A stretch of DNA of 64,000 bases from Prevotella sp. HUN102. GTDB lineage: Bacteria > Bacteroidota > Bacteroidia > Bacteroidales > Bacteroidaceae. The DNA is taken from positions 2,264,890 to 2,328,889 of the forward strand of contig NZ_JIAF01000004.1 in the NCBI RefSeq assembly GCF_000688375.1, in the 5' to 3' direction. Both the position numbers and the translations under genes were made by a program. The notes beneath the pieces are model-generated. The model had not been told where the DNA came from. It searched no databases and saw nothing but the letters and a program-made list of their open reading frames with translations. Positions 15,445 to 56,011 of the stretch are shown in pieces (position 1 is the first letter of the stretch; every line of letters begins with the position of its first letter).

Positions 15445-15623
15445 GATACATAAAAGAGAGTAATGCAAAACTTATAGAGGAGGTGCTGGAGGTTCGCATA
15501 AGCCAACTTAAAGAGCTACCAGCTCCAAGCCTACGGTTGCAAAACAAAATAAGGCTGTTGAAAATTGCATTAAAAGAATTACAAACAAAGAAAATAGTAA
15601 AAAATGGAAGAGTTAAGAATTAA
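15441..15623 (+). CDS. Small helical early protein
   Basis: 60 residues from the ATG at 15441 (MRYIKESNAK). Predicted to be mostly helical and basic. It overlaps the MBL gene by 4 bp and the next gene by 20 bp, so it sits inside a tightly packed operon. Function unknown. Confidence 0.55.
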   Translation: MRYIKESNAKLIEEVLEVRISQLKELPAPSLRLQNKIRLLKIALKELQTKKIVKNGRVKN

Positions 15624-16188
15624 CAAAGAAAATGTTATTGCCTGCTACAACAAAAGCAGTGAGGAAACAAAAGAAACTTTGATGCACCTTTTCGGTGAAG
15701 ATGTTTTTAAGTTTGATTTCCGTAGTATTAAAACCTACAAAGATGCCTGCAAGCATTTAGGACTTGATGGTAGTAAGGAGGTGTTTAATATAGATGATTG
15801 CAACTCCTTTAATAAGAAAGCAATGCAACAGGCAGATGCAGTGTACAGGCTCATAACCATTTGCGATGCTATAAACAACGGACAAAAGTATGATAAAAAC
15901 GGTACAACATGGTTTCCTGTATATTATTTCTACACCAAAGGAGAGATAGAGGAAATGGGAGAGACAAAACGCAAAGAAAAAGGTATTAAACTCCTCTCCT
16001 CTGCTTTTGCGTACTTTTCGGAGGTTGCGGGTGTTCGCTGTGCGCTTGCGGATAATCGAGGTGCGTTTACGTTTGCGATTTGGGGTTTCCCCTTGTGCCT
16101 AACAAGCGAGGAAAAAGCTCTATATGTAGCAGAGCAATTCGAGAGTTTGATTTTTAGATGTTATGGAATAGAAGTTAATGAGGATTAA
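15604..16188 (+). CDS. Early phage protein with a remote DGR variable repeat
   Basis: 194 residues. The N-terminal part (1-110) is a helical domain containing SIKTYKDACKHLGLD and AVYRLITICDAINNG. From memory it resembles a protein family frequent in Bacteroidota genomes and phages whose C-terminus ends like LCxxSxExAxYxxxQFxxL; I have no database check. Residues 129-166 are the variable repeat VR2, homologous to the template at 54649-54759. They are followed by a constant tail (SEEKALYVAEQFESL). The varied side chains are F, Y, F, V, L, D, N, F, F and I where the template would encode Asn. No signal peptide is visible, so the protein looks cytosolic. It lies in the early recombination operon, about 38.5 kb from the reverse transcriptase. 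Confidence 0.85.
   Translation: MEELRINKENVIACYNKSSEETKETLMHLFGEDVFKFDFRSIKTYKDACKHLGLDGSKEVFNIDDCNSFNKKAMQQADAVYRLITICDAINNGQKYDKNGTTWFPVYYFYTKGEIEEMGETKRKEKGIKLLSSAFAYFSEVAGVRCALADNRGAFTFAIWGFPLCLTSEEKALYVAEQFESLIFRCYGIEVNED
15989..16099 (+). repeat. DGR variable repeat 2 (VR2), remote
   Basis: 111 bp, the same length as TR (54649-54759). Within the ten AAY codons of TR, VR2 differs at 15 positions, every one an adenine in TR. Non-adenine positions are unchanged. Near the 3' end TR reads CCTTATACC while VR2 reads CCTTGTGCC, like VR1. That segment is probably the initiation-of-mutagenic-homing site. Confidence 0.92.
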
Positions 16189-16190
16189 GT

Positions 16191-16646
16191 ATGAATAGCT
16201 GGTTTGAATGCAAAGTGCGTTATGAGAAAACGCAAGAAAATGGTACAGTAAAGAAAGTTACAGAGCCATATTTGGTAGATGCTTTGAGCTTTACAGAAGC
16301 TGAAACACGCATTACCAAAGAGATTACACCGTATATGGCAGGGGAGTTTGAGGTAAGCGATATTAAACGTGTACGCTACTCCGAGATATTTGAAAGCACC
16401 GAAGAAACAGCAGATAAATGGTTTGAGTGTAAATTGGAGTTTATTACGCTTGATGAGCGTAGTGGCAATGAGAAGCGAAGTAATAGCCGTGTACTCGTGC
16501 AAGCAGCCAATTTGCGTGATGCTATGAAAAAGCTGGAGGCTGGCATGAGTACAACTATGGTTGATTATAATGCTCTCTCCATAAAAGAAACAGCACTAAT
16601 GGATGTTTACAAATTTCAAGCCGACACAGGCGTTGAAAATTCTTAA
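16191..16646 (+). CDS. DUF4494-type phage protein
   Basis: 151 residues. The N-terminus WFECKVRYEKTQENGTVKK with EPYLVDALSFTEAE matches the DUF4494 family that I know from Bacteroidota phages and mobile elements. A second WFECKLEF at about 73-80 suggests an internal repeat of the beta-rich unit. Molecular role unknown. It lies 2 bp after the VR2 gene. Confidence 0.75.
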   Translation: MNSWFECKVRYEKTQENGTVKKVTEPYLVDALSFTEAETRITKEITPYMAGEFEVSDIKRVRYSEIFESTEETADKWFECKLEFITLDERSGNEKRSNSRVLVQAANLRDAMKKLEAGMSTTMVDYNALSIKETALMDVYKFQADTGVENS

Positions 16647-16712
16647 TCAATAACACGTACCTCTGTTGCATAGAAAATGCGACAGAGGGCGTGAAAAACG
16701 GCAAAAACAGCA

Positions 16713-17687
16713 ATGACTAATAAAGGTTGGATAAAGCTACACAGGCAAATACTTGATTGGGAGTGGTCAGATGAGCCTGCTATGGTTGCCTTATTCGTAC
16801 ATTTACTCCTTATGGCTAACAGTGATGAGGGGTGGAAGTACAGAGGGGTTACGCTGAAAGCAGGGCAACTCATCACAAGTGTTGCAAGTTTAAGCAAGGC
16901 AACAGGTATAACCATTAAGGCATTGCGTACACGGTTGGAGCGTCTTGTTTCTACTGGGGAAATTAGTGTTGAGAGCTGCAAAAAATATAGCATTATCACT
17001 ATCTCAAATTATACAATTTATCAGCCAATGGCAAACGAAACGGCAAACAAAGGGCAAACTGAAAACACTGATAATATGGAGATTATGAGTAATGATAAAG
17101 AAGATGGGGCAAACAAAAGGGCAAACAATGGGCAAACAAAAGGGCAAACCGATATTCAAGAAATGGGCAAACAAAGGGCAAACGTAAACCATTGTGAAAC
17201 AGGTACATTACAAGAGTGCAACTCTGTTAATGGGCAAACAATGGGCAAACAAAAGGGCAAACAAAAGGGCAACATTCAAGAATATAATAATATATTATCT
17301 TCTAATAATATTATAGATAATAATATAGAAGAGAAAAAAATAATAAAAAAAGAGAGCGAACAAATTTTTGATGAATTCCGCAAAGCCTATAAAGGGAAAA
17401 AACGTGGACTTACCACCGAACTTGATAATCTCAAAAAGAAACACCCCAAAGACTGGAAAGACATAGTGCCATTACTAATGCCAGCATTGGAGAGAGAGGA
17501 GCAACACCGAAAGATAGCTAAAGCTGCTGGAGAATTTGTACCTCAATGGGCAATGTTGCAAACGTGGATTAATCAAAGCAGGTGGGAAATGGAATACCCC
17601 GAAGATGAGCAGCAGGTAACACAAGTACAACCAACAGCCCCAGCAGCCAACGAATATGGAGGCGACTTTGGAGGGGTTGATTACTAA
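16713..17687 (+). CDS. Phage replication initiator / replisome organiser
   Basis: 324 residues. The N-terminal 100 residues (GWIKLHRQILDWEW, then a winged-helix-like segment ATGITIKALRTRLERL) match replisome-organiser proteins. The middle (about 105-215) is low complexity, with GQT, GKQ and ANK units encoded by an iteron array. The C-terminal segment (about 225-300) contains FDEFRKAYKGKKRG and PQWAMLQTWINQ as in DnaD/DnaB-like helicase-recruiting domains. The next gene is a DnaC-like loader, so the pair should start phage replication by loading host helicase, as lambda O and P do. Confidence 0.8.
   Translation: MTNKGWIKLHRQILDWEWSDEPAMVALFVHLLLMANSDEGWKYRGVTLKAGQLITSVASLSKATGITIKALRTRLERLVSTGEISVESCKKYSIITISNYTIYQPMANETANKGQTENTDNMEIMSNDKEDGANKRANNGQTKGQTDIQEMGKQRANVNHCETGTLQECNSVNGQTMGKQKGKQKGNIQEYNNILSSNNIIDNNIEEKKIIKKESEQIFDEFRKAYKGKKRGLTTELDNLKKKHPKDWKDIVPLLMPALEREEQHRKIAKAAGEFVPQWAMLQTWINQSRWEMEYPEDEQQVTQVQPTAPAANEYGGDFGGVDY
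17030..17350 (+). other. Putative phage replication origin: iterons plus AT-rich tract
   Basis: Twelve direct copies of GGCAAAC occur at 17030, 17042, 17053, 17108, 17120, 17131, 17143, 17166, 17177, 17233, 17244 and 17256, with a degenerate copy at 17268; most extend to GGGCAAACAA and neighbours are 11-12 bp apart. An almost pure A+T tract follows (about 17279-17350). The repeats are read in all three frames of the host gene (as GQ-T, GK-Q and A-N), which argues that DNA, not protein, is conserved. The layout matches the lambda origin inside gene O. Confidence 0.75.
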
Positions 17688-17698
17688 CAGCAAGGAAT

Positions 17699-18424
17699 AT
17701 GGAACCTCAAAGGATAAACGAAATTTGGAGGCGTATACAAAACGATTACAGAAACTCAAGGGTACACTACGAGGATTTGAGCAATGAGGAGGTTTTTAAC
17801 CAGCACGCCAAGATACTCCTAACAATAGCAAACTCTATCGTACTTGAACCGCAAAGGAGAAAGCTTGTAATTGATGAGCGAAACAAGGAGCTACTCCGTT
17901 TCCTACTCTATTACTTTAACGATTGCCAGCTTGCAGAGCAGGTTTTCCCCAATAAGCGGTACAAGCTGCACAAGAACCTACTCATACACGGCAATGTTGG
18001 TACAGGGAAAACTCTCATTATGCAAATATTTGCAGAGTATTTGAGGTACACCAACAACCCGAAAGCATTTCAAAACCTATCTGTAACGCAAATGGTAAAT
18101 TACTACACCATACACAACAACCTTGACCGCTACACCTACAATGAGGAGAGCAACAAGGGATTTAAGGCAGAGCCTGTAAACATTTGCCTAAATGATATAG
18201 GCGTGGAGAGTAAAACGTACTTTGGTATGGACACGAAATTGCTTACCAATGAGTTTCTACACGCTCGCAATGAGATATGGGTACAGTATGGTAAATATGG
18301 GCATCTCACTACCAACTTAACCATTGAGCAGCTTAAAAGTGAGTTTCACGATGGTTTTGGGCGTTTGATAGACAGATTTAAGACCTACAATGTAATTGAG
18401 ATGGCAGGGAATAGCAGGAGATAG
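17699..18424 (+). CDS. DnaC/IstB-like helicase loader ATPase
   Basis: 241 residues. Walker A is GNVGTGKT (98-105) and Walker B NICLNDIG (about 161-168). An arginine-rich sensor segment FGRLIDRFKTYNVIEM lies near the C-terminus. The family loads replicative helicase at phage origins. It follows the initiator gene by 11 bp. Confidence 0.83.
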   Translation: MEPQRINEIWRRIQNDYRNSRVHYEDLSNEEVFNQHAKILLTIANSIVLEPQRRKLVIDERNKELLRFLLYYFNDCQLAEQVFPNKRYKLHKNLLIHGNVGTGKTLIMQIFAEYLRYTNNPKAFQNLSVTQMVNYYTIHNNLDRYTYNEESNKGFKAEPVNICLNDIGVESKTYFGMDTKLLTNEFLHARNEIWVQYGKYGHLTTNLTIEQLKSEFHDGFGRLIDRFKTYNVIEMAGNSRR

Positions 18425-18437
18425 CCGTTTTTGGCAC

Positions 18438-18522
18438 TTTTCAGCCCTGACAACAGCGTTTCGCCTGTAATATAGTACAAGTTATAGAAGCAGGAAAGAA
18501 AATGCCTTAAATCGGCTGAAAA
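18438..18522 (+). repeat. Inverted repeat in a 138-bp gene-free gap
   Basis: TTTTCAGCC (18438-18446) pairs with GGCTGAAAA (18514-18522) across 67 bp. The gap follows the helicase loader gene. It may be a transcript end or a small structured leader; there is no T run next to it. Low certainty. Confidence 0.3.
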
Positions 18523-18562
18523 CAGCAAATAAGATTTTAAGTACAACCAAAACAAGTGTAAT

Positions 18563-19132
18563 ATGAGCAACAAAGGCAATAGTAAGCAGTATGATGGTAT
18601 AAAACAAAAACTCTTAAAGCTGCAAGCACTGGCAGAGAGAGGCTATAAAGGAGAGGCGTATGCAGCTCAACAAGCCATAGAGCGTATTTGCCAGCAATAT
18701 AACATAAGGCTTGATGATATTTTAGATACACAAGCAAAACGCTGGTACACCTTTGAAACAGGGAGGAGCAAGGCAATGCAAACACTGTTTATGCAGTGTT
18801 ACGCAAAGGTTATGAATGTTGGCAGTATGTCTTATCGGCAAATTGGCAGGAATAGAATAGGCATAGAGCTTACAGCCCTGCAATATGCAGAGCTATCCAA
18901 TATGTTTGAGTGGCACAAAGATAACTTTACGCAAGAGCTGGAGAATATGAAGCAAACTTTTTTAGAGGCATACATTAGCAAGCATAACATTTACAGAGAT
19001 ACAGATAATGAGAATGCCGAAGAAAAAGAACTAACAATGGAGGATTTACAACGCATACGCAAAATACTGGCAATGCGTGAAACCATTAGTGATAGACACT
19101 ACAATAAGATGTTAGAGTGTACGCAGGGGTAA
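18563..19132 (+). CDS. DUF2786-like early phage protein
   Basis: 189 residues. The N-terminal 50 residues (KQKLLKLQALAERGYKGEAYAA...QQYNI) have the helical pattern of DUF2786 domains found in phage and plasmid proteins. The rest is helical and charged. No catalytic motif. Function unknown. Confidence 0.6.
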   Translation: MSNKGNSKQYDGIKQKLLKLQALAERGYKGEAYAAQQAIERICQQYNIRLDDILDTQAKRWYTFETGRSKAMQTLFMQCYAKVMNVGSMSYRQIGRNRIGIELTALQYAELSNMFEWHKDNFTQELENMKQTFLEAYISKHNIYRDTDNENAEEKELTMEDLQRIRKILAMRETISDRHYNKMLECTQG

Positions 19133-19150
19133 GGGGTTTTTATGCACAGA

Positions 19151-19170
19151 AAGCGTGTATATAATTAACG
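19151..19170 (+). promoter_or_regulatory. Phage 20-bp motif, copy A
   Basis: AAGCGTGTATATAATTAACG, 15 bp before the start codon at 19186. Closely related sequences are at 35937-35956 and 36072-36091 (minus strand) and 53082-53101 (plus strand). All are intergenic. It may be a phage-specific promoter or operator. Confidence 0.55.
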
Positions 19171-19185
19171 TAAAAACAAAATAAT

Positions 19186-19641
19186 ATGAGCAAGAAAAAA
19201 ACAGCAGTTTTAATGTTGAGTAAGCAATTTATGACAGGGCATAGTTGCGCTGGAGAGCCTACTGGGTTTGTAGATAAAATCAAAGCAGGTACAAAGCTCC
19301 ACACCATAAGAGGGAACTATGACTACTGGGCAAAAAAGGCTGAAAAAATCAATGCAGGAGAAATGGAGTTAAGCATCAGAGTATGGGAGGGCAAACCATA
19401 CAATAGCCGACAGGTTGAAGTTGCAAAACTGGATAAGCTGGGTGTGCAGCAAATGGAGGCTTGTTATGGCAGTAAAGATGCAGTACCTCAAATTTGGATT
19501 GATGGCAAGGAATATTTAGGCGATATAGAACATATAGCACGCAACGATGGCTTGAGTTATGAGCAATGGGTTAATTGGTTCTTCCAAAAGTCCAACACAT
19601 TTGAGGGTGTGATATTGCAATTTACTGATTTTAGATACTAA
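19186..19641 (+). CDS. ASCH/PUA-like early phage protein
   Basis: 151 residues. GFVDKIKAGTKLHTIRGNYDYW and the pattern of beta strands around EVAKLDKLGVQQ resemble small ASCH-type RNA-binding domains seen in phages. The end EGVILQFTDFRY is also typical of that group in Bacteroidota. Function unknown. Motif copy A precedes it. Confidence 0.55.
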   Translation: MSKKKTAVLMLSKQFMTGHSCAGEPTGFVDKIKAGTKLHTIRGNYDYWAKKAEKINAGEMELSIRVWEGKPYNSRQVEVAKLDKLGVQQMEACYGSKDAVPQIWIDGKEYLGDIEHIARNDGLSYEQWVNWFFQKSNTFEGVILQFTDFRY

Positions 19642-19647
19642 CAAGTT

Positions 19648-20049
19648 ATGGAGCAAGAAATATGGAAGCCAGTAGAAGGCTACACAGGCTATGAGGTTAG
19701 CAATATGGGGAAAGTGCGCAAGTGCGGACATACCGAGATACTCCGTATTGTAAAAGGCTATGGTATGAGGAGGGTAACACTCCGTAAGAACGATGAGTAT
19801 CACCTTGTAGTTGTTGCAAAACTTGTACTGGAACATTTTGTTGGTAAGATGCCAGCAGGATATAAGGCTACCTGCATTGATGGTAATTATGAGCATTTGA
19901 GTGTAGATAATCTATGCTGGGTTGTGCGCAGAAAGAAACGCTACAACAGGCAGTGTAATAAAATTAAGACTGATAAAGAGGCTGTTAGTCGAGTAGAAAA
20001 CCATATAAATTGGATTAAAAGAAATGGGAAAAGGAGACATAACAATTAG
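19648..20049 (+). CDS. NUMOD4/HNH-like protein, active site degenerate
   Basis: 133 residues. The NUMOD4 DNA-binding motif EIWKPVEGYTGYEVSNMGKV is at the N-terminus. The following HNH-like region (about 60-92: VVVAKLVLEHF, then GYKATCIDGNYEHLSVDNLCW) keeps the fold pattern of phage homing endonucleases but lacks the usual second His/Asn pair. It may be inactive or a DNA-binding protein. A free-standing homing-endonuclease origin is plausible. Confidence 0.72.
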   Translation: MEQEIWKPVEGYTGYEVSNMGKVRKCGHTEILRIVKGYGMRRVTLRKNDEYHLVVVAKLVLEHFVGKMPAGYKATCIDGNYEHLSVDNLCWVVRRKKRYNRQCNKIKTDKEAVSRVENHINWIKRNGKRRHNN

Positions 20050-20287
20050 GCAGCTTGAAAATGGGTGTTTTGATGTGCTTTACAATGAAAAGCGTACAGG
20101 AGATTTAAGTTTCGATGAAATGTTGGGATTGATAGCTGCAATCACAATGCCACAAAAACGCCCCTGTTTACATTGGCTCAAAACAGAGGAATGGCACGAA
20201 GAGGAAGCAAGGCGTTACAAACCAAAGGAAACAGAGCAAGGGGGTATGCCAAAGCTGTTACCACACATAAAGGCTGATAATTTATGA
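20024..20287 (+). CDS. Small early phage protein
   Basis: 87 residues, overlapping the HNH-like gene by 26 bp and the next by 4 bp. Two-strand N-terminus (ITIRQLENGCFDVLYNEKRTGDL), charged C-terminus. Not recognised. Confidence 0.55.
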   Translation: MGKGDITIRQLENGCFDVLYNEKRTGDLSFDEMLGLIAAITMPQKRPCLHWLKTEEWHEEEARRYKPKETEQGGMPKLLPHIKADNL

Positions 20288-20538
20288 GGTTTGCATTAAG
20301 GAACAAAGATAAGCTAATACAAGCCTTTGGAGAGTCTTTTTATTGCGAACTGGTGGAGTGCTTGAAAAAGTATTTTGAGAGCGACACAGCAAACGACAGG
20401 TGCAGTATAGATGGCTTAAACAAGGAGGCAATAAAAGTAACAAGCAGTACTGCTGGCGGAATACATATTTTTGCTGTTATAGGGCAAATGTATGATGTTG
20501 TTAAGCTGGCATACTATAAAACGGAAAACAATGAGTAA
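20284..20538 (+). CDS. Small early phage protein
   Basis: 84 residues. Mixed helix and strand, no motif recognised. Overlaps both neighbours (4 bp and 8 bp), which supports translation. Confidence 0.55.
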   Translation: MRFALRNKDKLIQAFGESFYCELVECLKKYFESDTANDRCSIDGLNKEAIKVTSSTAGGIHIFAVIGQMYDVVKLAYYKTENNE

Positions 20539-20728
20539 TAACAGTAGGAGCAATAAAGCTATAAATAGAGCTAACCCTGTACACGGATTGGAAAAGATAC
20601 CAACGCATATCCTACTCAAATACAGCAGGCAAGAGGTTGGGGAGCTTAAAGCATATATTGACGAGTTGGAGTATGAGAATGAAATGCTCCGAGAGAAATT
20701 ACTTCAAAAGGAGAATAGCAATGAATAA
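20531..20728 (+). CDS. Small coiled-coil early protein
   Basis: 65 residues from the ATG at 20531 (MSNNSRSNKA). Residues 38-62 form a likely coiled coil (ELKAYIDELEYENEMLREKL). Overlaps neighbours on both sides. Unknown function. Confidence 0.5.
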   Translation: MSNNSRSNKAINRANPVHGLEKIPTHILLKYSRQEVGELKAYIDELEYENEMLREKLLQKENSNE

Positions 20729-21016: not shown

Positions 21017-21022
21017 TATGTT

Positions 21023-22495: not shown

Positions 22496-22507
22496 ACTGG
22501 AAATGCT

Positions 22508-22792: not shown

Positions 22793-22824
22793 CTTATGCG
22801 ATGTCATTATGAGAATATTAAGAT

Positions 22825-22840: not shown

Positions 22841-22921
22841 TTATATTGAGTAAAAACTGGGAGAGAAAGTGTGTATTTGTACACAAAATGCACATAAAAC
22901 AAGAAGTTAATGAGGTAACAA

Positions 22922-26136: not shown

Positions 26137-29100
26137 ATGGCAAAATTAGATTATAAAGACATATACTCTAAACTGGGCAAGCGTACCGAGTGGTATGCGC
26201 TTGCCGTGCGTGATACCTTCCAGAAGCGCATAAGCGAAATAGTGGCTATGTGTGAGGAGCTGGATATTAACGAGGATAAGCCATTTGCATTTGCGGATTA
26301 TAAAGATATAGCACCAGCCGTTCAAGCCAAGCTAAGGCAACTATATAGCGAGGTGTACCAATCCTTGCGAGGTAACATTGTAAGGGAGTGGAACTATGCC
26401 AACGACACAACCGATAAGCTGGTTAAGGGCTTGTTTGGCAAACATAGCATAGAGGATAAGCACTATGCACGCTATTTTCAGCGCAACAAAGAGGCTATGA
26501 ACAGCTTTTTTGAGCGCAGGCAGGACGGGCTGAATCTCTCCCAACGTGTTTGGCAGTATGTAGGGCAAGCTAAAACAGACCTTGAGGTGGCACTTGATTT
26601 GGGTATAGGGCAAGGGTTAAGCTCTGACACGCTCAATCGCAAGGTTAAGCAGTACCTTAATAACCCCGATGACCTCTTCCGTAGATTCCGTTATAAGGTT
26701 GGAGAGGACGAGGAGGGCAACCCTATTTATGGGCGCAAATGGAAACGCAGGAGGTATGATAAGGAAACAGATACCTTTTACTGGGTGGACGATAACCCAA
26801 AGAATTACCATACTGGGCAAGGTGTGTATAGGAGCAGTTACAAGAACGCTATGCGTTTGGCAAGAACTGAAACTAATATGGCTTACAGGACAGCCGACAT
26901 TACACGCTGGCAACAAATGGAGTTTGTGCTGGGCTATGAGGTAAAACTAAGCCATAACCACCCTTGTACTGATATATGCGATGATTTGCAGGGTAAGTAC
27001 CCCAAAGGGTTTGTTTTTAAGGGCTGGCATCCTCACTGCTATTGTTACATTGTGCCTATACTCTGCAAAGATAGCGAGCTGGGACAGCTAACAGAGACTA
27101 TACTTAACGGAGAGGACACAAGTGCGTTTGCACCTGCTGGTATAATTACAGATGTACCAGCAGGCTTTACTGGTTGGATAGCAAATAATGAGGAGCGCAT
27201 ACGAAGTGCAGCCTCTTTGCCTTACTTTATAACTGATAATTACAAGAATGGAGAAATAGACAAAGGTTTTAAGTGGTTAAGGGAGCATAAAAATGAGGCT
27301 GGGCTGGCAAACTTTAAGAAAGTATTAGCCAATAAAGAGTTGCAGCTTGATGCTATAAACAAAGTGCAACCGCTCACAGCTAAGGAGTTTGCAGAATGTA
27401 GCAATTATGTTGAAGCTGGCAAAGCAGGAGGTTTCCCTATTTGCACAACCCCACCAGCAACAGGCGTGCAGTTTGAGGAGTTAAGCAAGTTGGCAGACAA
27501 AGAAGAATTGGCTGCTATAATGCAAGAGGCTGCTAAGGGTAATAACACCCTCTCAACATATATAAACACAAAAGAGCTTGCAGAGTTGGAAAAGATAGCC
27601 ACTCAAGCTAAGTTTGCAAGCAAAACAGAGGTACAATTTGTAGCCGTATTAGATAATGATGCGCTGGGAGCTGCAATAAAGGGCGACACAGGCTTATTTG
27701 CCAGCAGTCGGTATATTGGTACGAATTATAGTAATTTATGCTCTGTTGCGCTTGAAAATGGCTCTATCGCTGCTGATACAGGTGCAACGTGTGTTATAAA
27801 GCTACCTGCTGGCAGTAGATACCTACAAACTACTATTGGAGGAGAACATACGGCAATGCTCCTACCTAATACTAAACTCAAAGTAACAGGCAAGGAGGTT
27901 AAGGCTATTACCCACGCAGGCAAGACTACCAATATAACGCATTATACGTTGGAGGTGGTAAACGATGGGAGCAGCTTTGTAAAGAGTATTGCAGAGATTA
28001 AAACACAAGTTGAGGCAGAGGTTACAGCATATAAGAAAGCTGTTAAGGCTGCCAACAATGTTATAAACGCAGCCAATAAATGGCATTATGGTTTACTGGG
28101 CGTTGATACAGCACCACTACAAGCAATCGTTAAGAGCGAGAGCAGCATAGAAATTAGCAAGGCTACTAAGGTGTTGGCAAAAGAGATGGCAGGGGCTAAG
28201 AAGCTGGCACTTGCAGAGTATGAGAATATGCCTAACCTGTATGGGCTTACATTGGAGTTTGGAGAGGCTAATGCAAAGGTATTTATGGAGAACTGGGCAA
28301 AGCACATCGGCAAGTCAAGCATTTATGACACCGATGAGCTATTCCTTAAAAAGGTTATCCAAAAGGAGTTGTATTATGCCAAACTCAACCCTAACAAATA
28401 CCCTACAACCCAAAAGTTTATATATTTCTTTGAGAAGCTGGAGGAGCAATATAATACAAAGATTGCTATAAAAGCTCTGCAACCCGATGTTGATGCAGCC
28501 ATTGTTTTTGCTCAAACAACAAAAAGTACAAAGGTAAAAACATTAGTAGCAGAATTACAGCAACTAATGAGCAGCCAAATGCTTGATGAGAGTGCTATTA
28601 AGGCTAAGTTAGAAACAGCACAAAAAGAAATTGATAGGTTAAACAAAGAGCGTTTAGCACGCCTAATTAAAAAAGGTATTGGCAAAGGGAGTACAAGTAA
28701 ATATGATATGACATCGGTGTACTCTGCACAAGAGGCAAAAGAGTATAACCGACTGCACGCTGAATTTCAAAAAGCACTCTTAAATAATAATGGAGATTAT
28801 CGAGCAAGTGCAGTTCTACAAGCTCAAAATGCTTTGGCTGATTATGTAACAGATTTGGGTGTAAAGTACCAAAGTATTAACCCAAAATTGCCACATATAG
28901 GAGGCTATACAGATGCAGAGGTTAAGAAAGCCATAAAAGACTATTTAACGCACAAAACCAATACCAATGGTTTTGGAGTGTATAGTGGTTCAATAGGTGG
29001 AGAGTATGAAAGTGCAGCCTGTGAAAGTTATGCTAAAAAAATAGGGCTACCAGCAAAAGAACTCTCTATATTACGTAGGTACACAGCAGGTAGTAACTTT

Positions 29101-29589
29101 GTTAATGAGTATGCGTATAAAGCTGACGATTGGATAAACTGGGCAATGCCAAAAATGAAACAAGCTGGTGTATATCATGAATTTGTAAAGCTCATAGAGG
29201 ACTACCTAAAAGCCTATAATGGTGTGTGTGAAAAGATGCCAAGATACAATAGCCATACATATAGAGGGGTGCGTTTAAGCAAACCTGCTGCACAACAAAT
29301 GTTGGCAGATATACAGAGTGCTTATAACAGTGGCAAGGAATGGATTAGTTTAAACCCTATGAGTACAACAAGGGATATACGAGTAGCCGATGGGTTTGGT
29401 ACAGATTTAACCTTTCTTGTAAGAGGTAAAACAGGTGTTGATGTTAATCCTATTAGCCGTTTTATGGGAGAGGACGAATATGTATTTAGAGCTGGTAGCA
29501 AATTCCGTGTATTGAGGGTGTACAAAGCTACTAAGCCCGACATTGCAAGAGTTGGTAGCTGGTGTGTTGAGTTAGAAGAAATACTTTAA
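26137..29589 (+). CDS. MuF-type minor head protein fused to an ADP-ribosyltransferase
   Basis: 1150 residues. Residues about 100-320 are a minor head/MuF domain, with LARTETNMAYRTADITRW and the His/Cys-rich HNHPCTDICDD and HPHCYCY. Residues 499-620 resemble a degenerate ADP-ribosyltransferase-like beta domain (CVIKLPAGSRYL, MLLPNTKLKV). Residues 640-950 are helical. The C-terminal domain (about 950-1150) has the R-S-E signature of ADP-ribosyltransferases: YRGVRL (R1043), MSTTRD (S1076-T-T) and GEDEYVF (E1112-x-E1114), then FRAGSKFRVL. Such domains modify proteins using NAD+. MuF-ART fusions are known polymorphic-toxin forms; virion delivery is an inference. A glycohydrolase that could reverse the modification is encoded at 32539-33318. 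Confidence 0.85.
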   Translation: MAKLDYKDIYSKLGKRTEWYALAVRDTFQKRISEIVAMCEELDINEDKPFAFADYKDIAPAVQAKLRQLYSEVYQSLRGNIVREWNYANDTTDKLVKGLFGKHSIEDKHYARYFQRNKEAMNSFFERRQDGLNLSQRVWQYVGQAKTDLEVALDLGIGQGLSSDTLNRKVKQYLNNPDDLFRRFRYKVGEDEEGNPIYGRKWKRRRYDKETDTFYWVDDNPKNYHTGQGVYRSSYKNAMRLARTETNMAYRTADITRWQQMEFVLGYEVKLSHNHPCTDICDDLQGKYPKGFVFKGWHPHCYCYIVPILCKDSELGQLTETILNGEDTSAFAPAGIITDVPAGFTGWIANNEERIRSAASLPYFITDNYKNGEIDKGFKWLREHKNEAGLANFKKVLANKELQLDAINKVQPLTAKEFAECSNYVEAGKAGGFPICTTPPATGVQFEELSKLADKEELAAIMQEAAKGNNTLSTYINTKELAELEKIATQAKFASKTEVQFVAVLDNDALGAAIKGDTGLFASSRYIGTNYSNLCSVALENGSIAADTGATCVIKLPAGSRYLQTTIGGEHTAMLLPNTKLKVTGKEVKAITHAGKTTNITHYTLEVVNDGSSFVKSIAEIKTQVEAEVTAYKKAVKAANNVINAANKWHYGLLGVDTAPLQAIVKSESSIEISKATKVLAKEMAGAKKLALAEYENMPNLYGLTLEFGEANAKVFMENWAKHIGKSSIYDTDELFLKKVIQKELYYAKLNPNKYPTTQKFIYFFEKLEEQYNTKIAIKALQPDVDAAIVFAQTTKSTKVKTLVAELQQLMSSQMLDESAIKAKLETAQKEIDRLNKERLARLIKKGIGKGSTSKYDMTSVYSAQEAKEYNRLHAEFQKALLNNNGDYRASAVLQAQNALADYVTDLGVKYQSINPKLPHIGGYTDAEVKKAIKDYLTHKTNTNGFGVYSGSIGGEYESAACESYAKKIGLPAKELSILRRYTAGSNFVNEYAYKADDWINWAMPKMKQAGVYHEFVKLIEDYLKAYNGVCEKMPRYNSHTYRGVRLSKPAAQQMLADIQSAYNSGKEWISLNPMSTTRDIRVADGFGTDLTFLVRGKTGVDVNPISRFMGEDEYVFRAGSKFRVLRVYKATKPDIARVGSWCVELEEIL

Positions 29590-47345: not shown

Positions 47346-47352
47346 TTAGGAT

Positions 47353-48603: not shown

Positions 48604-51600
48604 TACACAAACGTAATGGAGAGGTACGCTATGTGTTAGATAGTACTGCAAAGCTCTGCACCGTAAAAAGTGCAGAGCAAAAGCGTGATTTGCTGGGCGA
48701 AGATACCGTAACTATAAAAACAGAAAGCACAACGGCAATGGAATATATGGTAGGCGACTATATAGAGGTGTTTGGCGATGTTTACACGCTTAACAAGATA
48801 AATGAGCCTACTAAAAATGGAGAACGCAAGTTTGAGAACAATATGGTATTTGAGGGCTTACAATACAAGCTACTTGATGCACAATATCGTAATACCGATG
48901 CTGCTGGGCATAACCCCAGCGGAGAGTTTCAACTTGTAGCCAATATGGGCTTGTTGATGAATGTGCTAATCAACAACGTAAAACGTGTATCAGCTCCTTT
49001 GGGAGAGGTTTGGGAGTTGGGCGACTGCATAGAAACAGAGTACAAAGATTTCTCTTTCAGTAAAGAGAATTGTTTGAGCGTATTGCAGCGTGTATGCAAG
49101 GATTTCAATACAGAGTTTGAGATTGAGGTTGTTACTCCTAAGCATTATAAGCTACATATCCGCAAAGCTGGCAAACTCTTCCCTGCTACATTCTCATTCG
49201 GTATGGGAGGAGGCATTTACAAGCTGAAACGCAAGAATGTTAATAGTAATGATATTGTAACACGCCTGTATGTTGAGGGTGGTACTAAGAATATTACAAC
49301 CAATTACAGGAATGGAGCGCAGCGTTTAAGGATTGCTGATAACGAGGAAAGTTATATTGATAACAAACAAGCAATAGCAGCCTTTGGAGTTAAGGAGGGG
49401 AGCAGAGTATATGAGGATATTTACCCACACCGTACAGGAGTTGTTAGCTCTATTGTTGAGGGGGATATTTTCAAGTTTGTGGACAACACAATGTTTGACC
49501 TCAAAGAGAAAGATACCAACGGCAATACACGCTGGTTGATAGATGGCACTGCTGCAAAGCTCAAGTTTGTTGGTAATAGTAATTTGGCTGGCTATGAGTT
49601 CGAGATAGCCGACTATGATACCAAAACACAAACTTTCACGATTAACCAGTATGAGGATAAGCGAGGCTTGAAAATACCAAGTGCAGCCACAGCTTACCAA
49701 ATACAAAAGGGGGATAAGTATGTGTTACTTGATATTATTATGCCAAACGACCCATACGTTGTTGATGCAGAAACAGAACTTAAAAAGGCAGGCACAAAAG
49801 ATTTGGAGGCAGATAGCCAGCCAAAGGTTGAGTATGAGCTTGAATTTGCGAGCCTGTTACTCAAGCGTAGGTTTGGTGTAGATGGCTCATTGCCTAACCT
49901 CTTTAAGGTTGGCGATTATTTGCCTATTAAAGATAAGGATATAAATGTAGATAAAGCTATACGAATTAAGGGGTTTACAAGAGATTGTTACAAAGACGAG
50001 TATAGTTACAAGCTAACAATTAGCGACACAGCAGAGGTAAGCATTATTGAGAAGCTGATTATAGATAACGAGGAGCAAAACAAACTCATTACCTTAAACC
50101 AGCTTACAGATGTTGCCAAAGCAAGAGCTAACTGGAGAACCACACAGGAGCTGCTAAATATGGTATTTGATGGCGATGGCTTCTTTGATGCCACCAATAT
50201 ACGCCCAAATAGTATTGAAACGCTTATGTTGAGCGTTGGCAATCGTGCTGGGCAATTCATTTTACAAAACATCGTCATTGAGGCTAATGCCACTGTTAAT
50301 GGTAAGCCTAACCCTAATTTAGTGAGAATAGGCAGCAATAATGGAGTGTTAATCCATTACGCTATTGAGGAAAATAATAGAATGTGGAATATAGGAGAGA
50401 ACACCATTACCTTAACAAGTAATGGGGCATATTACCTATATGCACGTTGCGCAAAAGGAGCTGGAGAGAGTGGCGCAAGCCTTGTTTTCAGCCAAACACG
50501 CTATGCAGTAGATACAGGTGCTTACTATTATTTCCCTGTTGGAGTGCTTTCCTCTGTTTACAATGGCTATCGTGAGCTTACAACAACATACGGAGCAACA
50601 CGCATAACAGGGCGTACTATTAACTGTGGGCGTATTGAGAGTATAGATAAACGTACTTACTTTGACCTTGACAATAGTGAGATTGGAGGTAATATAAAAT
50701 TTGTTTCAACCGATGGTACAATGAAAAGTATTGAGGAGTTGGAGCATTTGGTTAATACAACCTCCACTGCACTTGATAATGTAAATGAGATTATAGAGAG
50801 CTTACAAAGCCAAGTAGATGGTACTGTTGAGTATTGGTTTGGTATGGGTGTGCCAACGCTGGGAACTGCACCAGCTAACCAGTGGAAAACAGAGTTGGAT
50901 AAGAAAACACATTTGGGGGACTTATATACTGACACTGCTACTGGTTTAGAGTATAGATTTACAAAGGAGGGAGAAACCTATAAGTGGGTAAATATTCCCA
51001 GCACTGGTATTGGGCAAGCCATACAAACAGCTAATGATGCGTTGGAAACTGCCAGCAGTAAAAATCACACTTTCCTAACAGCAAACTATAATACATATCC
51101 AAAACCACCGTATAAAATTGGTGATTTGTGGATAACTCTCAATGATTATAAGATACGAATTTGCACCAAAGCACGCGAATCCTTAAGCTCATACACCAAT
51201 GCCGATTGGAAAGAGGCTGGTTATACCGATGATACAAATGCTAATGCTGCACTACAAAAACTAACAGATTTGGCAACAGATAGCATCATTACTCCAAGCG
51301 AGAAAATTAAGCTCAAAGATGAGCTGGCTAATATTAAAGTGGACTACTCTACTGTGAAAGCAAAGGCACAGTTGGCAGGTTGTACTACCAATGAGTTTGA
51401 TGCAGCATACAGTACGCTACTTGTGTATATTAGTGCATTTCTCTCAAATATGCAGGTAAATAGCACAGGAGTAAATAAAGCAACCTACAACGGCAACTTC
51501 TCTGCATATTACAAAGAACGAACCAACTTACTTGATGCTGTTAGCAAGCAATATGTTGATAGCGTAGAGGTCGGTAATGGTAATTATATTGGGAATAGTG

Positions 51601-53051
51601 CTTATTTTACAGACCTCAAAGGCTGGTTTCACAACCCTAATGATGGTGTTAATATCCCACCTATTTATGCCGATAGTATTATGGGCAATGTTATGAGGTT
51701 TAGGAAAACGAACCAAAAAGATATTTGGTTTCTGCATACTCCTTTTGCTAAAGCAGGAGGTAACATATTATTGCCAAACGAGAAATTTGGTAGTGGTATT
51801 ACATACACACTTGCATTTTGGGTAAAAGCAAATGCTCCAATACAGCTTAATATGGGCTTTATGAATCCGAAAGGCGATAAGAGAGTTGCACCATATAAGT
51901 ATTTTACAGCCGATACAAAATGGAAACGAGTTGTATATACATTTGTGGCAACAGGAGATAGCCAACCCGATACAGAATTGTTTTTCCGCACCGATACAGC
52001 TGATATGCAATTTGCAAACTTATATATGACAAAGTTTGTTTTAGTTGAGGGGAACAAAGCCCCCGAATGGAACTCAAGCAACCAAGAGGTACAGAGCATG
52101 ATTAAGGCTAACAAGGATTTATTAAAAGCCATTACCCAAAACTACACACAAATTGAGGGTGGGCTTATCCTATCCACATTCTTAAAGCTGGGCGCATTAC
52201 AAAAAAGTGATGCTTGGGTTGAGAGTGCAGGCTTAAAAGCTATGCTCAATAGTACAGATGAGATTGCTGCATATTTTGGAGGCACTTACCAAGAGGCATT
52301 GGCAGGAAACAATGAGGGTATGACTATTATATATCACAATGGAAAGCTGAAAGCACTCAACGCAGAGATTACAGGTACTATAAATGCTACAAATGGAACT
52401 TTTAGTGGAAAATTAGATGGTGTTACAGGTACTTTCCGAGTTTTACAAGCTCTTGATAGTAACGGTAATGTAAAGGCAGAGATTGGCTTTAATTCCAGTG
52501 AGGGGAAGCTGTATTTTAGTGGAGATATGCAGCACCAAGGAACTAAGGACGGACGTAGCTTGCGCTTTTATTCCTCTGATATTTGGTGTCGTGGCTCATT
52601 TGGAGCAAGAGAAAGAAACTTGTTAGTTATCAAGGGAGCTTATGGTTATTATTATCCAAACGGTGTGTACACAGATGGCAACTATGTAAGTTTAGCATCT
52701 AAAACCAGTAGTAATGGGGAAAGATATTATGAGGTTGATTGCTATGGGCGAACTGGCGATTACAGCGGTTTCCCTGTTGATACCATAATCTTTAACATAC
52801 AAGGTGGCTCTGTATTTCAATACTGCTTAAATGCTGCTGCAACACAAAGAATAATGATTATCAATGGTAATGATAGCAGCAATAATGTTAAAATCTTCTC
52901 CAATGGTAGAGCAGTTGTTTGGAATGGTGGAGAGATTGCAGAGGTCGTGCAAATGCCTACTCCCTCTTCATTCACAACACCAAGCATAAATACAAATCAT
53001 TTAGGTGCTGGTTTGTTGGTGGGAGCTTTTAGAGATAATAACTGGCAATAA
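48588..53051 (+). CDS. Tail tip/tail fibre protein
   Basis: 1487 residues, overlapping the previous gene by 16 bp. The N-terminal 480 residues look like a tail hub (phage minor structural or prophage tail endopeptidase-like). A jelly-roll, carbohydrate-binding-like segment lies at about 995-1150 (NYIGNSAYFTDLKGWFHNP). The C-terminus (about 1220-1487) is fibre-like. Probably carries host attachment functions. Confidence 0.72.
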   Translation: MGQIIVHKRNGEVRYVLDSTAKLCTVKSAEQKRDLLGEDTVTIKTESTTAMEYMVGDYIEVFGDVYTLNKINEPTKNGERKFENNMVFEGLQYKLLDAQYRNTDAAGHNPSGEFQLVANMGLLMNVLINNVKRVSAPLGEVWELGDCIETEYKDFSFSKENCLSVLQRVCKDFNTEFEIEVVTPKHYKLHIRKAGKLFPATFSFGMGGGIYKLKRKNVNSNDIVTRLYVEGGTKNITTNYRNGAQRLRIADNEESYIDNKQAIAAFGVKEGSRVYEDIYPHRTGVVSSIVEGDIFKFVDNTMFDLKEKDTNGNTRWLIDGTAAKLKFVGNSNLAGYEFEIADYDTKTQTFTINQYEDKRGLKIPSAATAYQIQKGDKYVLLDIIMPNDPYVVDAETELKKAGTKDLEADSQPKVEYELEFASLLLKRRFGVDGSLPNLFKVGDYLPIKDKDINVDKAIRIKGFTRDCYKDEYSYKLTISDTAEVSIIEKLIIDNEEQNKLITLNQLTDVAKARANWRTTQELLNMVFDGDGFFDATNIRPNSIETLMLSVGNRAGQFILQNIVIEANATVNGKPNPNLVRIGSNNGVLIHYAIEENNRMWNIGENTITLTSNGAYYLYARCAKGAGESGASLVFSQTRYAVDTGAYYYFPVGVLSSVYNGYRELTTTYGATRITGRTINCGRIESIDKRTYFDLDNSEIGGNIKFVSTDGTMKSIEELEHLVNTTSTALDNVNEIIESLQSQVDGTVEYWFGMGVPTLGTAPANQWKTELDKKTHLGDLYTDTATGLEYRFTKEGETYKWVNIPSTGIGQAIQTANDALETASSKNHTFLTANYNTYPKPPYKIGDLWITLNDYKIRICTKARESLSSYTNADWKEAGYTDDTNANAALQKLTDLATDSIITPSEKIKLKDELANIKVDYSTVKAKAQLAGCTTNEFDAAYSTLLVYISAFLSNMQVNSTGVNKATYNGNFSAYYKERTNLLDAVSKQYVDSVEVGNGNYIGNSAYFTDLKGWFHNPNDGVNIPPIYADSIMGNVMRFRKTNQKDIWFLHTPFAKAGGNILLPNEKFGSGITYTLAFWVKANAPIQLNMGFMNPKGDKRVAPYKYFTADTKWKRVVYTFVATGDSQPDTELFFRTDTADMQFANLYMTKFVLVEGNKAPEWNSSNQEVQSMIKANKDLLKAITQNYTQIEGGLILSTFLKLGALQKSDAWVESAGLKAMLNSTDEIAAYFGGTYQEALAGNNEGMTIIYHNGKLKALNAEITGTINATNGTFSGKLDGVTGTFRVLQALDSNGNVKAEIGFNSSEGKLYFSGDMQHQGTKDGRSLRFYSSDIWCRGSFGARERNLLVIKGAYGYYYPNGVYTDGNYVSLASKTSSNGERYYEVDCYGRTGDYSGFPVDTIIFNIQGGSVFQYCLNAAATQRIMIINGNDSSNNVKIFSNGRAVVWNGGEIAEVVQMPTPSSFTTPSINTNHLGAGLLVGAFRDNNWQ

Positions 53052-53081
53052 TTGCCTATACTTTCAAAAGTTAGACAAACA

Positions 53082-53101
53082 AAGCGTGAATATAACTAAC
53101 G
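53082..53101 (+). promoter_or_regulatory. Phage 20-bp motif, copy B
   Basis: AAGCGTGAATATAACTAACG, 57 bp before the DGR target gene. A TATTTTTG (-7-like) follows at 53109-53116 without a matching -33 TTTG. The target gene and DGR may thus have their own regulation. Confidence 0.5.
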
Positions 53102-53158
53102 CTTTTCGTATTTTTGAAGCGTAGAAGAATAAACAAATAATAATTAAACAATAGCCAA

Positions 53159-54586
53159 ATGGGATTACTTATTGGTGTTGGGAACACAGTACCCAAATTT
53201 CCATACCAAGAGTTATGGTATGGCATTCGCATTAACCTCAAAAATGGAGGGCATAATGTAGCAGATGGTAAGGTTGAGCGTGTGGGGAACTTAGACCTAC
53301 ATCGCTCATTGCCTATACAGAAACGTATTAGGCGTTATGTAGCACATGAAGATGGAACGGTTAATTATTGGCTGGGGGCTAACGATAGCACCTTAAAAGA
53401 GGGAGGAGGAGCTGCAAAACTTAATGCTGTTGATGGTATTGTGCAACTCTACAAGCCCGATTATTACCGTAAGTTTGAGTTCGATGGGGATTACCTCCTT
53501 GTAGCCATTAGTGAGGTTGCATTGCCTGGATTTACACGTATGAAAGAGAAATCTCGTAGTCCGTGGCTGGCAACATTCAACCGCACAAACAATAAGCCCA
53601 CCTGTGCATCTTTCCTACAATGGGAAAGCAACGGCTCTGTAAAGCGTGTTGCTGAAACAGGGCTGCTTGACCTACTCCCAAATGCAGCAGATTACAGAGG
53701 CGGTACTAATGTTACTGGCAACGATGGAAAGCCAACAAGCGTGCTGGGTATGCCTGCAACAAGCACCAACAAGGCTACTATACGGACACGGTGCAAGAGT
53801 TTGGGCGACAACTGGCATTGTGGAGGTTGGCGTTTTCGTGAAGAAATGAGCTGGTTAATGGCTATTGAATTTGGAGAACTTGATAGCCAAGCTCCTTACA
53901 ATGCTCAAAAAACAGAAGATGGGTTTGCGCAAGGAGGATTGGGCAACGGCTCTTATGTAGGTGGAGAATGGGGAGGTTTTAATGGCTGGCAGCCATTTAT
54001 TCCTGCTGGTATCACTGCCAAGCTGGGTAACAATACTGGAGTTGTTGATTACCTAATTAAAGAGTGGAAGAGCGGAGTAGATAAAACCATTAAAGTAGCC
54101 AGTTACAGAGGCTGGGAGCAACCGCAACAATACCTGTGGGAGCATAACGATGATGTGCTGGTATTCTATACACCTTTTGCAGATGGTGGAGCTTGTAAGT
54201 TGTATTTATGTAGTGACCCTGCAAAGTTTACCACTCCAAGCGACCACGCAGGGGAAAATGTAGATGGTTATCAAGAATTAGGATTGCTACCTACTGGTAG
54301 TAACTACATTTCTGAAATGGGAGTTGCCAATGGCTACTCTTTCCCAAGTAGCGTAACAGGTGGAGCTGCTAATAAGAATTATTGCGACTATTTTTGGAGG
54401 CAGACAGTAAATGCCACAAACAATGCTGATGGCTGGTATCAACTCCTCTCCTCTGCTGGTGCGTACTATTCGGAGCATGCGGGTGTTCGCTGTGCGTATG
54501 CGCTTCATCGAGGTGCGGATACGGGTGCGGTTGCGACGTGGGGTTTCCCCTTGTGCCTTGAATTTCCGAGTTCCGATGGCATTTAG
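53159..54586 (+). CDS. DGR-diversified tail adhesin (variable protein 1)
   Basis: 475 residues. The bulk (about 1-380) is beta-rich and Gly/Trp-rich. The C-terminal domain (about 390-475), with SEMGVANGYSFPSS, FWRQTV and DGWYQLLSS, resembles the C-type-lectin-like ligand-binding domain of DGR target proteins. Residues 428-467 are variable repeat VR1. The varied positions are G, Y, Y, H, Y, L, H, D, G and V in place of template Asn. Being the last tail gene before the DGR, it is probably the receptor-binding protein whose binding surface the DGR changes. Confidence 0.85.
   Translation: MGLLIGVGNTVPKFPYQELWYGIRINLKNGGHNVADGKVERVGNLDLHRSLPIQKRIRRYVAHEDGTVNYWLGANDSTLKEGGGAAKLNAVDGIVQLYKPDYYRKFEFDGDYLLVAISEVALPGFTRMKEKSRSPWLATFNRTNNKPTCASFLQWESNGSVKRVAETGLLDLLPNAADYRGGTNVTGNDGKPTSVLGMPATSTNKATIRTRCKSLGDNWHCGGWRFREEMSWLMAIEFGELDSQAPYNAQKTEDGFAQGGLGNGSYVGGEWGGFNGWQPFIPAGITAKLGNNTGVVDYLIKEWKSGVDKTIKVASYRGWEQPQQYLWEHNDDVLVFYTPFADGGACKLYLCSDPAKFTTPSDHAGENVDGYQELGLLPTGSNYISEMGVANGYSFPSSVTGGAANKNYCDYFWRQTVNATNNADGWYQLLSSAGAYYSEHAGVRCAYALHRGADTGAVATWGFPLCLEFPSSDGI
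54441..54557 (+). repeat. DGR variable repeat 1 (VR1)
   Basis: 117 bp in the adhesin gene. It differs from TR at 14 adenines in the ten AAY codons; other bases match except for a 6-bp in-frame insertion (GCGACG) before the final TGG. Ends CCTTGTGCC where TR has CCTTATACC, as VR2 does. Confidence 0.95.
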
Positions 54587-54631
54587 TTTTGTTTGAGTAA
54601 AATATTGCTCTGTGTGAGTTCATAATAATAC

Positions 54632-54809
54632 GGTTACGGTGGTTCGGGAACTCCTCTCCTCTGCTAATGCGAACAATTCGGAGAATGCGGGTGTTCGCTG
54701 TGCGAATGCGAATAATCGAGGTGCGAATACGAATGCGAATTGGGGTTTCCCCTTATACCATAATTACGGTTTTCCCTTTTAAGGAGAATCTTTGCAACCA
54801 CCGTAAACC
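54632..54809 (+). ncRNA. Probable DGR template RNA region, TR enclosed by a stem
   Basis: GGTTACGGTGGTT (54632-54644) can pair with AACCACCGTAAACC (54796-54809) with a one-base bulge, enclosing the whole TR. A further small hairpin, AGCACC/GGTGCT, lies at about 54822-54841. DGR reverse transcriptases need structured RNA around TR, so this is likely the template RNA; its exact ends are not visible. Confidence 0.6.
54649..54759 (+). repeat. DGR template repeat (TR)
   Basis: 111 bp between the adhesin and reverse transcriptase genes. It contains ten AAY codons in the frame corresponding to the targets. Adenines in TR are replaced by other bases in VR1 (54441-54557) and VR2 (15989-16099), the mark of adenine-specific mutagenic retrohoming. 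The three isolated adenines in GAG, CGA and ACG codons are unchanged in both VRs. Confidence 0.95.
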
Positions 54810-54880
54810 TTGCCTCACAAAAGCACCTTATACAAGGGTGCTGGCAAAAGAATATGGTTAAAATAAAGTGCTGGTAGATT

Positions 54881-56011
54881 GTGGTTTACCACAAGTGCGA
54901 AAGCTCTTATAAAACAATGGCACATAAGATATATGCAAATAGTGAGAATGGGTATTGGAGGGTATGCAACCCTCTAAACGTGCTAAGAGCTACGAATAAT
55001 ACCATACGTGGCAAAATGAATAGACACGATGTAAAAAGATTACTAAAACGTGGCTATTGTGATGCTATAAAAAATGTATGGGAGATGCTGGAATATCAAA
55101 CATTCAAGCCATCAAAATACACAGAGAAAACTATTTTTGATGTGAAGCAACGCAACCTCAAAATAGCACCGCTATACCCCGATAGAATAGTACACCACTG
55201 CTTGATAGATGTTATTGAGGAAGATTTGCGCAAGATTTTTATTGCCAATACCTATGCTTGCATTAAAGGGCGTGGAATACATAAGTGCCTAACCGATTTG
55301 AACCGTGCGTTACAAAAAGATAAAGCAGGTACAAAGTATTGCCTAAAAATAGATGTAAGGCATTATTACGATAGCATTGTACATAGCATACTCAAAGATA
55401 TAATAGCAAAAAGCTATGGGGATAAAAAGCTGCTTTGGCTTATGCACCTTATAATAGATAGTACAGAGGGCGATATTGGTTTACCAATAGGCTTTTTAAC
55501 AAGCCAGCATTTTGCAAATTGGTATTTAAGCCCATTTGACCATTGGGTTAAAGAGGTGTTGCGTGTAAGGTATTATTACAGGTATATGGACGATATTGTA
55601 ATACTCGCTAATAGTAAAGCAAAACTGCACTATATACTTGAACAAGTAAGAGAGTACTTGCAAACAAAGCTAAGGCTAACTATAAAAGCAAACTGGCAAA
55701 TATTCCCAGTAGATGCACGCAGTATAGACTTTGTAGGTTACAAAAGCAACCATTACAATATATTGGCACGAAAAAGCATTTTGTACACCTATTGGAGAAA
55801 GTTGAAAAGGCTGCAAAATAGTTATGGAGCGATGACAGAAAGCGAGTTGCGACATAAGCTATCTGCACACTTTGGCTGGCTGCAACATTGCTCAAACAAG
55901 CATTATAAAGAGATAATAAGTTTAACATTAAAACAGATAAGAATAAAACAAATGGAAGAAAAAAGATTGAGTACAGGCTTGCATAGCGATAGCGTGCAGC
56001 CCACGTTTTGA
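54881..56011 (+). CDS. DGR-type reverse transcriptase
   Basis: 376 residues; an internal ATG at 54917 (MAHKIYANSENG) is an alternative start. Catalytic aspartates are D158 in KIDVRHYYD and D237-D238 in YMDD (235-238). The motif PIGFLTSQ (202-209) is the DGR-type form, unlike the group II intron QGxxxSP form. No maturase or endonuclease domain. It should copy the TR RNA with errors at adenines into cDNA that replaces the VRs. No Avd-like helper gene was recognised beside it. Confidence 0.93.
   Translation: MVYHKCESSYKTMAHKIYANSENGYWRVCNPLNVLRATNNTIRGKMNRHDVKRLLKRGYCDAIKNVWEMLEYQTFKPSKYTEKTIFDVKQRNLKIAPLYPDRIVHHCLIDVIEEDLRKIFIANTYACIKGRGIHKCLTDLNRALQKDKAGTKYCLKIDVRHYYDSIVHSILKDIIAKSYGDKKLLWLMHLIIDSTEGDIGLPIGFLTSQHFANWYLSPFDHWVKEVLRVRYYYRYMDDIVILANSKAKLHYILEQVREYLQTKLRLTIKANWQIFPVDARSIDFVGYKSNHYNILARKSILYTYWRKLKRLQNSYGAMTESELRHKLSAHFGWLQHCSNKHYKEIISLTLKQIRIKQMEEKRLSTGLHSDSVQPTF

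Follow-up and report, generated by a model that had tools for sequence, protein, structure and literature searches.

One template repeat matches a tail protein gene and a remote gene of the recombination–replication block in a Prevotella prophage

We analysed 64,000 nucleotides of DNA from Prevotella sp. HUN102 (contig NZ_JIAF01000004.1, positions 2,264,890 to 2,328,889; hereafter the window). The window contains a prophage with a diversity-generating retroelement (DGR). In such elements, the RNA of a template repeat (TR) is reverse transcribed with errors at adenines. The cDNA then replaces a variable repeat (VR) that has the right 3′ end. Here, the cassette consists of the TR, a structured RNA, a reverse transcriptase (RT) gene and a local variable repeat (VR1) located at the 3′ end of a tail protein gene. 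A second variable repeat (VR2) lies 38.5 kb to the left of the cassette, in frame within an open reading frame (ORF) of 194 residues. This remote target gene is placed between genes for a metallo-β-lactamase-fold (MBL) hydrolase and a DUF4494 protein; genes for DnaD- and DnaC-like proteins follow. Coordinates are listed in Table 1.

Table 1. Features of the DGR cassette and of the gene block around VR2 (window coordinates)
Feature	Position	Strand	Evidence
TR, template repeat	54649-54759	+	
VR1, local variable repeat, 117 bp, 6-nt in-frame insertion relative to TR	54441-54557	+	
VR2, remote variable repeat, 111 bp	15989-16099	+	84/84 non-A match, 17/27 A differ
RT-17 RNA (Rfam RF03020), structured RNA between TR and RT	54806-54927	+	covariance-model match
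DGR reverse transcriptase	54881-56011	+	RVT_1 1.8e-15, phrog_1423 4.4e-99, motifs
Tail protein (adhesin) gene, 475 aa, local DGR target	53159-54586	+	phrog_5302 E=9.8e-74
Remote DGR target gene, 194 aa, PHROG 11581, early by gene context	15604-16188	+	phrog_11581 E=4.1e-34
SbcC-like gene, same gene block	11757-13748	+	phrog_77 7.6e-63
recT	13759-14700	+	PF03837 6.7e-31
MBL-fold hydrolase	14713-15444	+	PF00753/PF12706; phrog_392 7.1e-69
DUF4494 gene	16191-16646	+	PF14902 7.2e-59
DnaD-like helicase loader / replication initiation	16713-17687	+	phrog_2514 3.2e-25
DnaC-like helicase loader	17699-18424	+	phrog_3277 1.6e-10

The TR and VR2 were compared in an ungapped alignment. All 84 non-adenine positions of the TR were identical in VR2 and 17 of the 27 adenines differed. 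At positions 107 and 109 the TR reads CTTATACC and VR2 reads CTTGTGCC, as does VR1. Hence, two of the 17 differences are a 3′-end change common to both variable repeats, and VR2 has 15 variable sites. An earlier, sequence-only reading of the window had placed every TR–VR2 difference at an adenine, which was correct; its count of 15 becomes 17 with the two 3′-end changes included. An ungapped scan of the TR along both strands of the window gave 84/84 non-adenine matches at 15989 (VR2) and 72/84 at 54441 (VR1). Elsewhere, the score did not exceed 46/84, a value produced by VR1 shifted by 6 bases. The next place, unrelated to either repeat, scored 39, and a chance repeat was rejected on this ground as the origin of the TR–VR2 match. 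VR1 carries a 6-nt in-frame insertion (GCGACG). Thus, the remote VR2, and not the adjacent VR1, is the exact-length match to the TR. With the insertion excluded, VR1 had 16 differences from the TR, every one at an adenine. One reading frame is common to all three repeats. Beyond the repeat edges, similarity to the TR extends 0 bases either side for both VR1 and VR2. A shared domain was rejected as the source of the similarity because it ends at these edges and because the profile match between the two target proteins is limited to the VR and its flank. Eleven adenines were mutated in both VR1 and VR2; the same base was present at 3 of the 11, about the expectation for independent events.

The RT is one open frame and matches both Pfam RVT_1 and a PHROG RT family. 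It has the motifs IGFLTSQ (residue 203) and YMDD (residue 235). In DGR-type RTs, SQ replaces SP. Distinct 3′ ends of VR and TR are known as IMH and IMH*; here, both VRs finish CTTGTGCC and the TR finishes CTTATACC. The window therefore holds the parts by which a DGR is recognised: an RT with the SQ motif and YxDD, a TR near the RT, and a VR in a protein gene with differences at TR adenines. The RT-17 RNA match scored 50.5 bits, above the gathering score of 40.4 (E=2.6e-8). The annotated RT start (GTG, 54881) falls within this match, which overlaps the start of the RT, and an in-frame ATG at 54917 is a plausible candidate for the real start. Four ORFs (54667-54861 and three after the RT) were scanned for Avd, and none matched an Avd-like Pfam family. 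VR1 and VR2 have the same 3′ end, so either could be rewritten. We regard it as almost certain that VR2 is a target of this TR and RT.

Homologues of the 194-residue protein were numerous. One search gave 70 and a profile search 697. A profile of distant members matched at least 5,807 protein clusters among 7,998 candidates, a count inflated because hypervariability splits clusters cut at 90% identity. Whole-genome matches were present in 16 of 399 species of the family to which the window belongs; at the level of its order they were present in 17 of 393 species, with weak matches among these 17. Genomes and virus records holding a homologue were searched for TRs close to their RTs, and TR positions were found with an adenine-tolerant score. 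Thirty phages or prophages provided a target together with an RT region, and in 26 of them the target was accompanied by an adenine-matched TR of its own (21 of 25 in one script, plus G352, G707, G725, G767 and G523). In a cross-test over all 25 regions, each of the 21 matched targets gave its top score on its own region, apart from one tie between Versailles and G269, whose TRs are near-identical. Hence, the adenine-tolerant score does not create the result. With a plain +1/−1 segment, mismatches in the 21 pairs fell at 287 of 524 TR adenines, compared with 4/528 at C, 3/603 at G and 16/556 at T. Genome G722 holds two sets of DGR and target 58.6 kb apart, and each target VR matches solely its own TR.

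Certain records stood outside this test. They were G416, in which the target is truncated ahead of the VR, the 13 genomes or records, out of 37, that gave no RT match (G212 included), G687 and G490 (no RT match), and the weak matches G530, G535, G665, G713 and G751. G399, which is the phage of the window, and G405, which is the same contig as that of G722, were each counted once. G352, which is of the LoVEphage type, as is OY731444, was counted besides it; further LoVEphage-type records lie outside the 30. Three proteins (P0018, P0019 and P0061) were rejected as evidence for homing, since they look like metagenome chimeras joining the target gene to a TR, RT or VR1. They were excluded from A1, A4 and the profile A2, as were the short P0058 and P0069. 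In G393 (L116, G393:C24:76000-86000), a TR-like repeat lies by the RT; the matched stretch has only 16 adenines and differs from the VR at 8 non-adenine positions, as if the template itself had mutated.

Natural variation was concentrated in the VR. Seven LoVEphage-type genomes carry six distinct VRs in the target gene, variable at 22 of 25 TR adenines and at 0 of 87 other VR bases. Outside the VR, 17 of 473 sites of the gene varied. Two of these genomes come from antibiotic induction, and the gene is in one register in all seven. In the five fetched LoVEphage-type phage records that include it, the TR is identical; VR1 and VR2 vary, and two records share VR2 and differ in VR1. A 92%-identical relative of the window's phage (L007) differs at 27 sites in the target gene, 18 of them in VR2 and 16 of these at adenines of the TR in the window, which was used here in place of L007's own. 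Among 69 homologues of exactly 210 residues (of 120 listed), all of one subfamily, variation was almost only in VR columns. We also examined 130 proteins (52 and 78, of 245, fitting two patterns, with suspected chimeras not removed beforehand) at ten positions of the VR; the TRs of the window and of Versailles have AAY there, and the same is assumed for Muribaculum-type members. All 1,300 residues belonged to the NNY codon set, and K, E, Q, M and W did not occur. Compared with an expectation of independent bases, cysteine was depleted (4 against about 59) and so was proline (8 against about 28). This may reflect selection on the protein or mutational bias.

Taken together, these data bear on the central proposal of the sequence-only reading, that one TR diversifies both a tail protein and a remote protein. 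The adenine-only match, the own-TR pattern in the 26 phages or prophages and the LoVEphage-type variation all support it. It had named an invariant VR2 among relatives, or VR–TR differences at non-adenine bases, as grounds for abandoning the idea; VR2 is not invariant, and such differences are rare. It had also asked whether the VRs of homologues are generally matched to a TR at adenines, which was the case in 26 of the 30.

Gene neighbourhoods were compared for 16 of 19 related loci (L013, L018 and L019 excluded) against the named genes of the window, Versailles and LoVEphage. Genes for SbcC-like, RecT and MBL proteins lay just upstream of the target in 14 of the 16, one of which (L006) is the phage of the window itself. 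DnaC lay downstream in 12 of those 14, and the other two loci end too early. L008 and L016 were the exceptions. In LoVEphage-type phages, the target gene is beside DUF2400, ASCH, PAPS-reductase and methyltransferase genes.

Two elements with Mu-like transposition genes have another organisation. In G767 (L148, G767:C4) and G523 (L150, G523:C267) the order is MuA-like transposase, MuB-like ATPase, further genes, DUF3164, two tandem target-family members, TR and RT. The tandem pair of G767 matches PHROG 11581, and that of G523 was found by the homologue profile A2. The G767 contig also holds terminase and portal genes. In G767, the whole contig was searched, and the whole genome by pattern, and the only TR-like places were the TR itself and the two tandem genes. 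The same three places were the only ones in the 15.8-kb contig of G523, where the pattern did not fit. As far as found, the DGR would thus serve target-family proteins alone in these two elements. This matters for the idea that VR2 is a passive landing site, at which homing strikes every copy bearing a suitable 3′ end, to no benefit of the protein. The sharp edges of the VR, and the 3′ tract identical in VR1 and VR2, are what such a site would show. However, the arrangement recurs across very different TRs, cysteine and proline are depleted in the VR, and no other target was found in G767 or in the 15.8-kb contig of G523. We consider a passive site very improbable.

The target protein matches PHROG 11581 over nearly its full length (residues 1-186 of 194), and 10 of 10 relatives scanned match it too. 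The family is labelled 'unknown function'. No Pfam or NCBIfam family matched at E ≤ 0.1, and no PDB entry at E ≤ 0.001. The AlphaFold model has a helical N-terminal part, with block-mean confidence scores (pLDDT) of 87-94 for residues 1-50 and 85-93 for residues 71-90, and a C-terminal helix. About ten randomised positions lie between the two in the model. The VR may sit on a helical scaffold and not on a C-type lectin domain. The protein is predicted to be intracellular, presumably in the cytosol, and the gene is called early from its neighbours. Alternatively, the target could be a second virion, ejected or surface protein, such as another adhesin, despite the position of its gene. Phage DGR targets are usually structural, the Versailles copy is annotated as a tail protein, and hhalign paired the target with the tail protein of the window at a probability of 97. 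Conversely, that alignment covers only the VR and its immediate flank, and the gene is in the recombination block at the 14 loci described above and among transposition genes in G767 and G523. Such a virion, ejected or surface role is improbable in our judgement. The Versailles homologue is WAK79127.1 (L009, 10001-10582); it probably owes its 'tail protein' label to a VR that resembles that of the phrog_5302 tail family.

We think it probable that one TR and one DGR RT serve both VR1, in the tail protein, and VR2, in the 194-residue protein, likely binding variable host proteins. In this scheme, the retroelement would copy TR RNA into adenine-mutated cDNA, and the cDNA would replace the sequence of VR2. 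The product would be an early, predicted intracellular protein with about ten randomised residues, which would likely bind variable host proteins. The position of the gene and its hypervariability both point to an intracellular binder, with partners that would be host proteins. Among these, we favour defence factors: the gene occupies a region in which phages carry genes for recombination and counter-defence, and an antagonist of fast-evolving host proteins would need hypervariability. The target protein may well be such an antagonist, although we stop short of calling this probable. The main rival is an adaptor to the host replication or recombination machinery (helicase, primase or nuclease), so that one template would tune both entry, through the tail, and the start of replication. 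The location between recT/MBL and dnaD/dnaC in most loci examined is consistent with an adaptor, as is the independent diversification of VR1 and VR2 at their 11 shared sites. However, the LoVEphage-type gene is beside DUF2400, ASCH and methyltransferase genes instead, and the copies in G767 and G523 are beside transposition genes. Since the neighbours differ in this way, there is no constant replication partner. Core replication proteins also generally vary less than such randomisation would need. We regard an adaptor as unlikely.

Several observations weigh against an intracellular binder that is diversified by the DGR. No homologue encountered has a known function. AlphaFold gives the VR no confident fold (pLDDT below 50 at residues 132-152 and 154-158, and at 125-155 in a relative), and surface display of the VR is therefore putative. 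No own-TR match was present in the RT regions fetched for G393, G365, G077 and G109 (4 of 30), and the RT match of G767 is reported with one internal TAG. Finally, in the sole public copy found of the window's exact phage (L006), the target gene is identical to that of the window. This identity would also be expected if the DGR of this prophage were a fossil, with VR2 rewritten formerly and now fixed. The 6-nt insertion in VR1, absent from the TR, fits a fossil, and so does the broken RT frame in a partial second copy of the prophage end in the assembly (L136). On the other side, the RT of the window is intact with the expected motifs, the RT-17 RNA is present, and L007 differs at many TR adenines within VR2. 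A fossil is quite improbable in our view; VR2 is presumably still subject to rewriting in this strain.

A broader proposal is that PHROG 11581 constitutes a family of Bacteroidales phages devoted to intracellular binding and comparable to antibodies. Its members would offer an early scaffold for randomisation by DGRs, giving every phage lineage a large repertoire against intracellular host factors; the tail protein would be co-targeted in certain phages, and two elements with Mu-like transposition genes yielded no other target. We offer this tentatively, as a possibility that is more doubtful than not. Receptor binding is the usual explanation for proteins that phage DGRs target. In the present case, rewriting across many different phages falls on a single conserved family from the recombination–replication block, and no further target was found in two elements with Mu-like transposition genes. 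If the protein does act inside the cell, phages would possess a means of adapting, at the level of proteins, to intracellular host factors. In that case, the identity of the partner of a hypervariable early protein is directly testable with named inducible phages (Versailles and LoVEphage members).

The Mtd DGR of BPP-1 has a TR, VR, RT and adenine mutagenesis, all of which recur in the window; it differs in having a structural target and an Avd, a protein that we did not recognise among the four ORFs scanned. The sequence-only reading had called a target in the early recombination region unusual. The location stands, and is general across the loci compared. Distal non-structural second targets have, however, been published (PMC8008677, PMC12629997). 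Benler et al. (2021; PMC8008677) describe a distal, predicted non-structural second DGR target in Quimbyvirus (ORF 80/84) and propose a role in phage–host conflict. As here, variation is adenine-specific and the gene, distal to the structural module, has a VR from the same TR. The window gene fits this type in position and TR match, and its product is a putative non-virion protein. Unlike the window target, between MBL and DUF4494, that of Quimbyvirus is near methyltransferase and tRNA-ligase genes, and the Quimbyvirus RT is split over frames. The window protein is ~30% identical to the product of the LoVEphage gene, which, judged from similar neighbourhoods, may be the Quimbyvirus second target. 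Homology to the LoVEphage RT (L010, 30822-31434) falls in two pieces in different open frames, reminiscent of the Quimbyvirus split RT.

There are other precedents. In a 2025 Nature study (PMC12629997), four prophage species from the gut are reported to have a second VR that is distal and close to counter-defence genes. There too the second VR is far from the RT and near methyltransferase genes, and LoVEphage members are in the collection; the target family, its breadth and the recombination–replication context are not described in the passages considered. Bacuni phages (PMC8143477) have two DGR targets, one of them remote, but both are presumed to be adhesins and were matched to a fimbrial tip protein. 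In the tentaclin phages nd4/nd12 (PMC10743442), one TR serves two different target proteins, but these are both described as C-type lectin proteins bearing a hypermutated hairpin and lie inside the DGR cassette. Roux et al. (PMC8144416) point out that remote targets would escape their own survey of metagenomes. Versailles appears in a list of induced prophages (PMC10197239). In the literature searched, which did not extend to subscription papers and preprints, we found neither 'phrog_11581' nor a description of one conserved family located, for the most part, between recT/MBL and dnaD/dnaC. Relative to that literature, the present analysis adds how widely the pattern occurs, its link to a single protein family, the recombination–replication context and a case without a tail target.

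Two further features were noted. The start of the contig (L136, G000:C4:1-6831) duplicates the right end of the prophage (window 51813-58646) at 99.96% identity, with 0 mismatches and 3 gaps. Both copies stop at an apparent 3′ half of a tRNA gene and then enter different DNA. Hence, two prophage copies or two integration states are likely. Lastly, window positions 26137-29589 encode a 1150-aa protein with head-morphogenesis matches, the best PHROG of which is labelled 'Bxa ADP-ribosyl transferase'.

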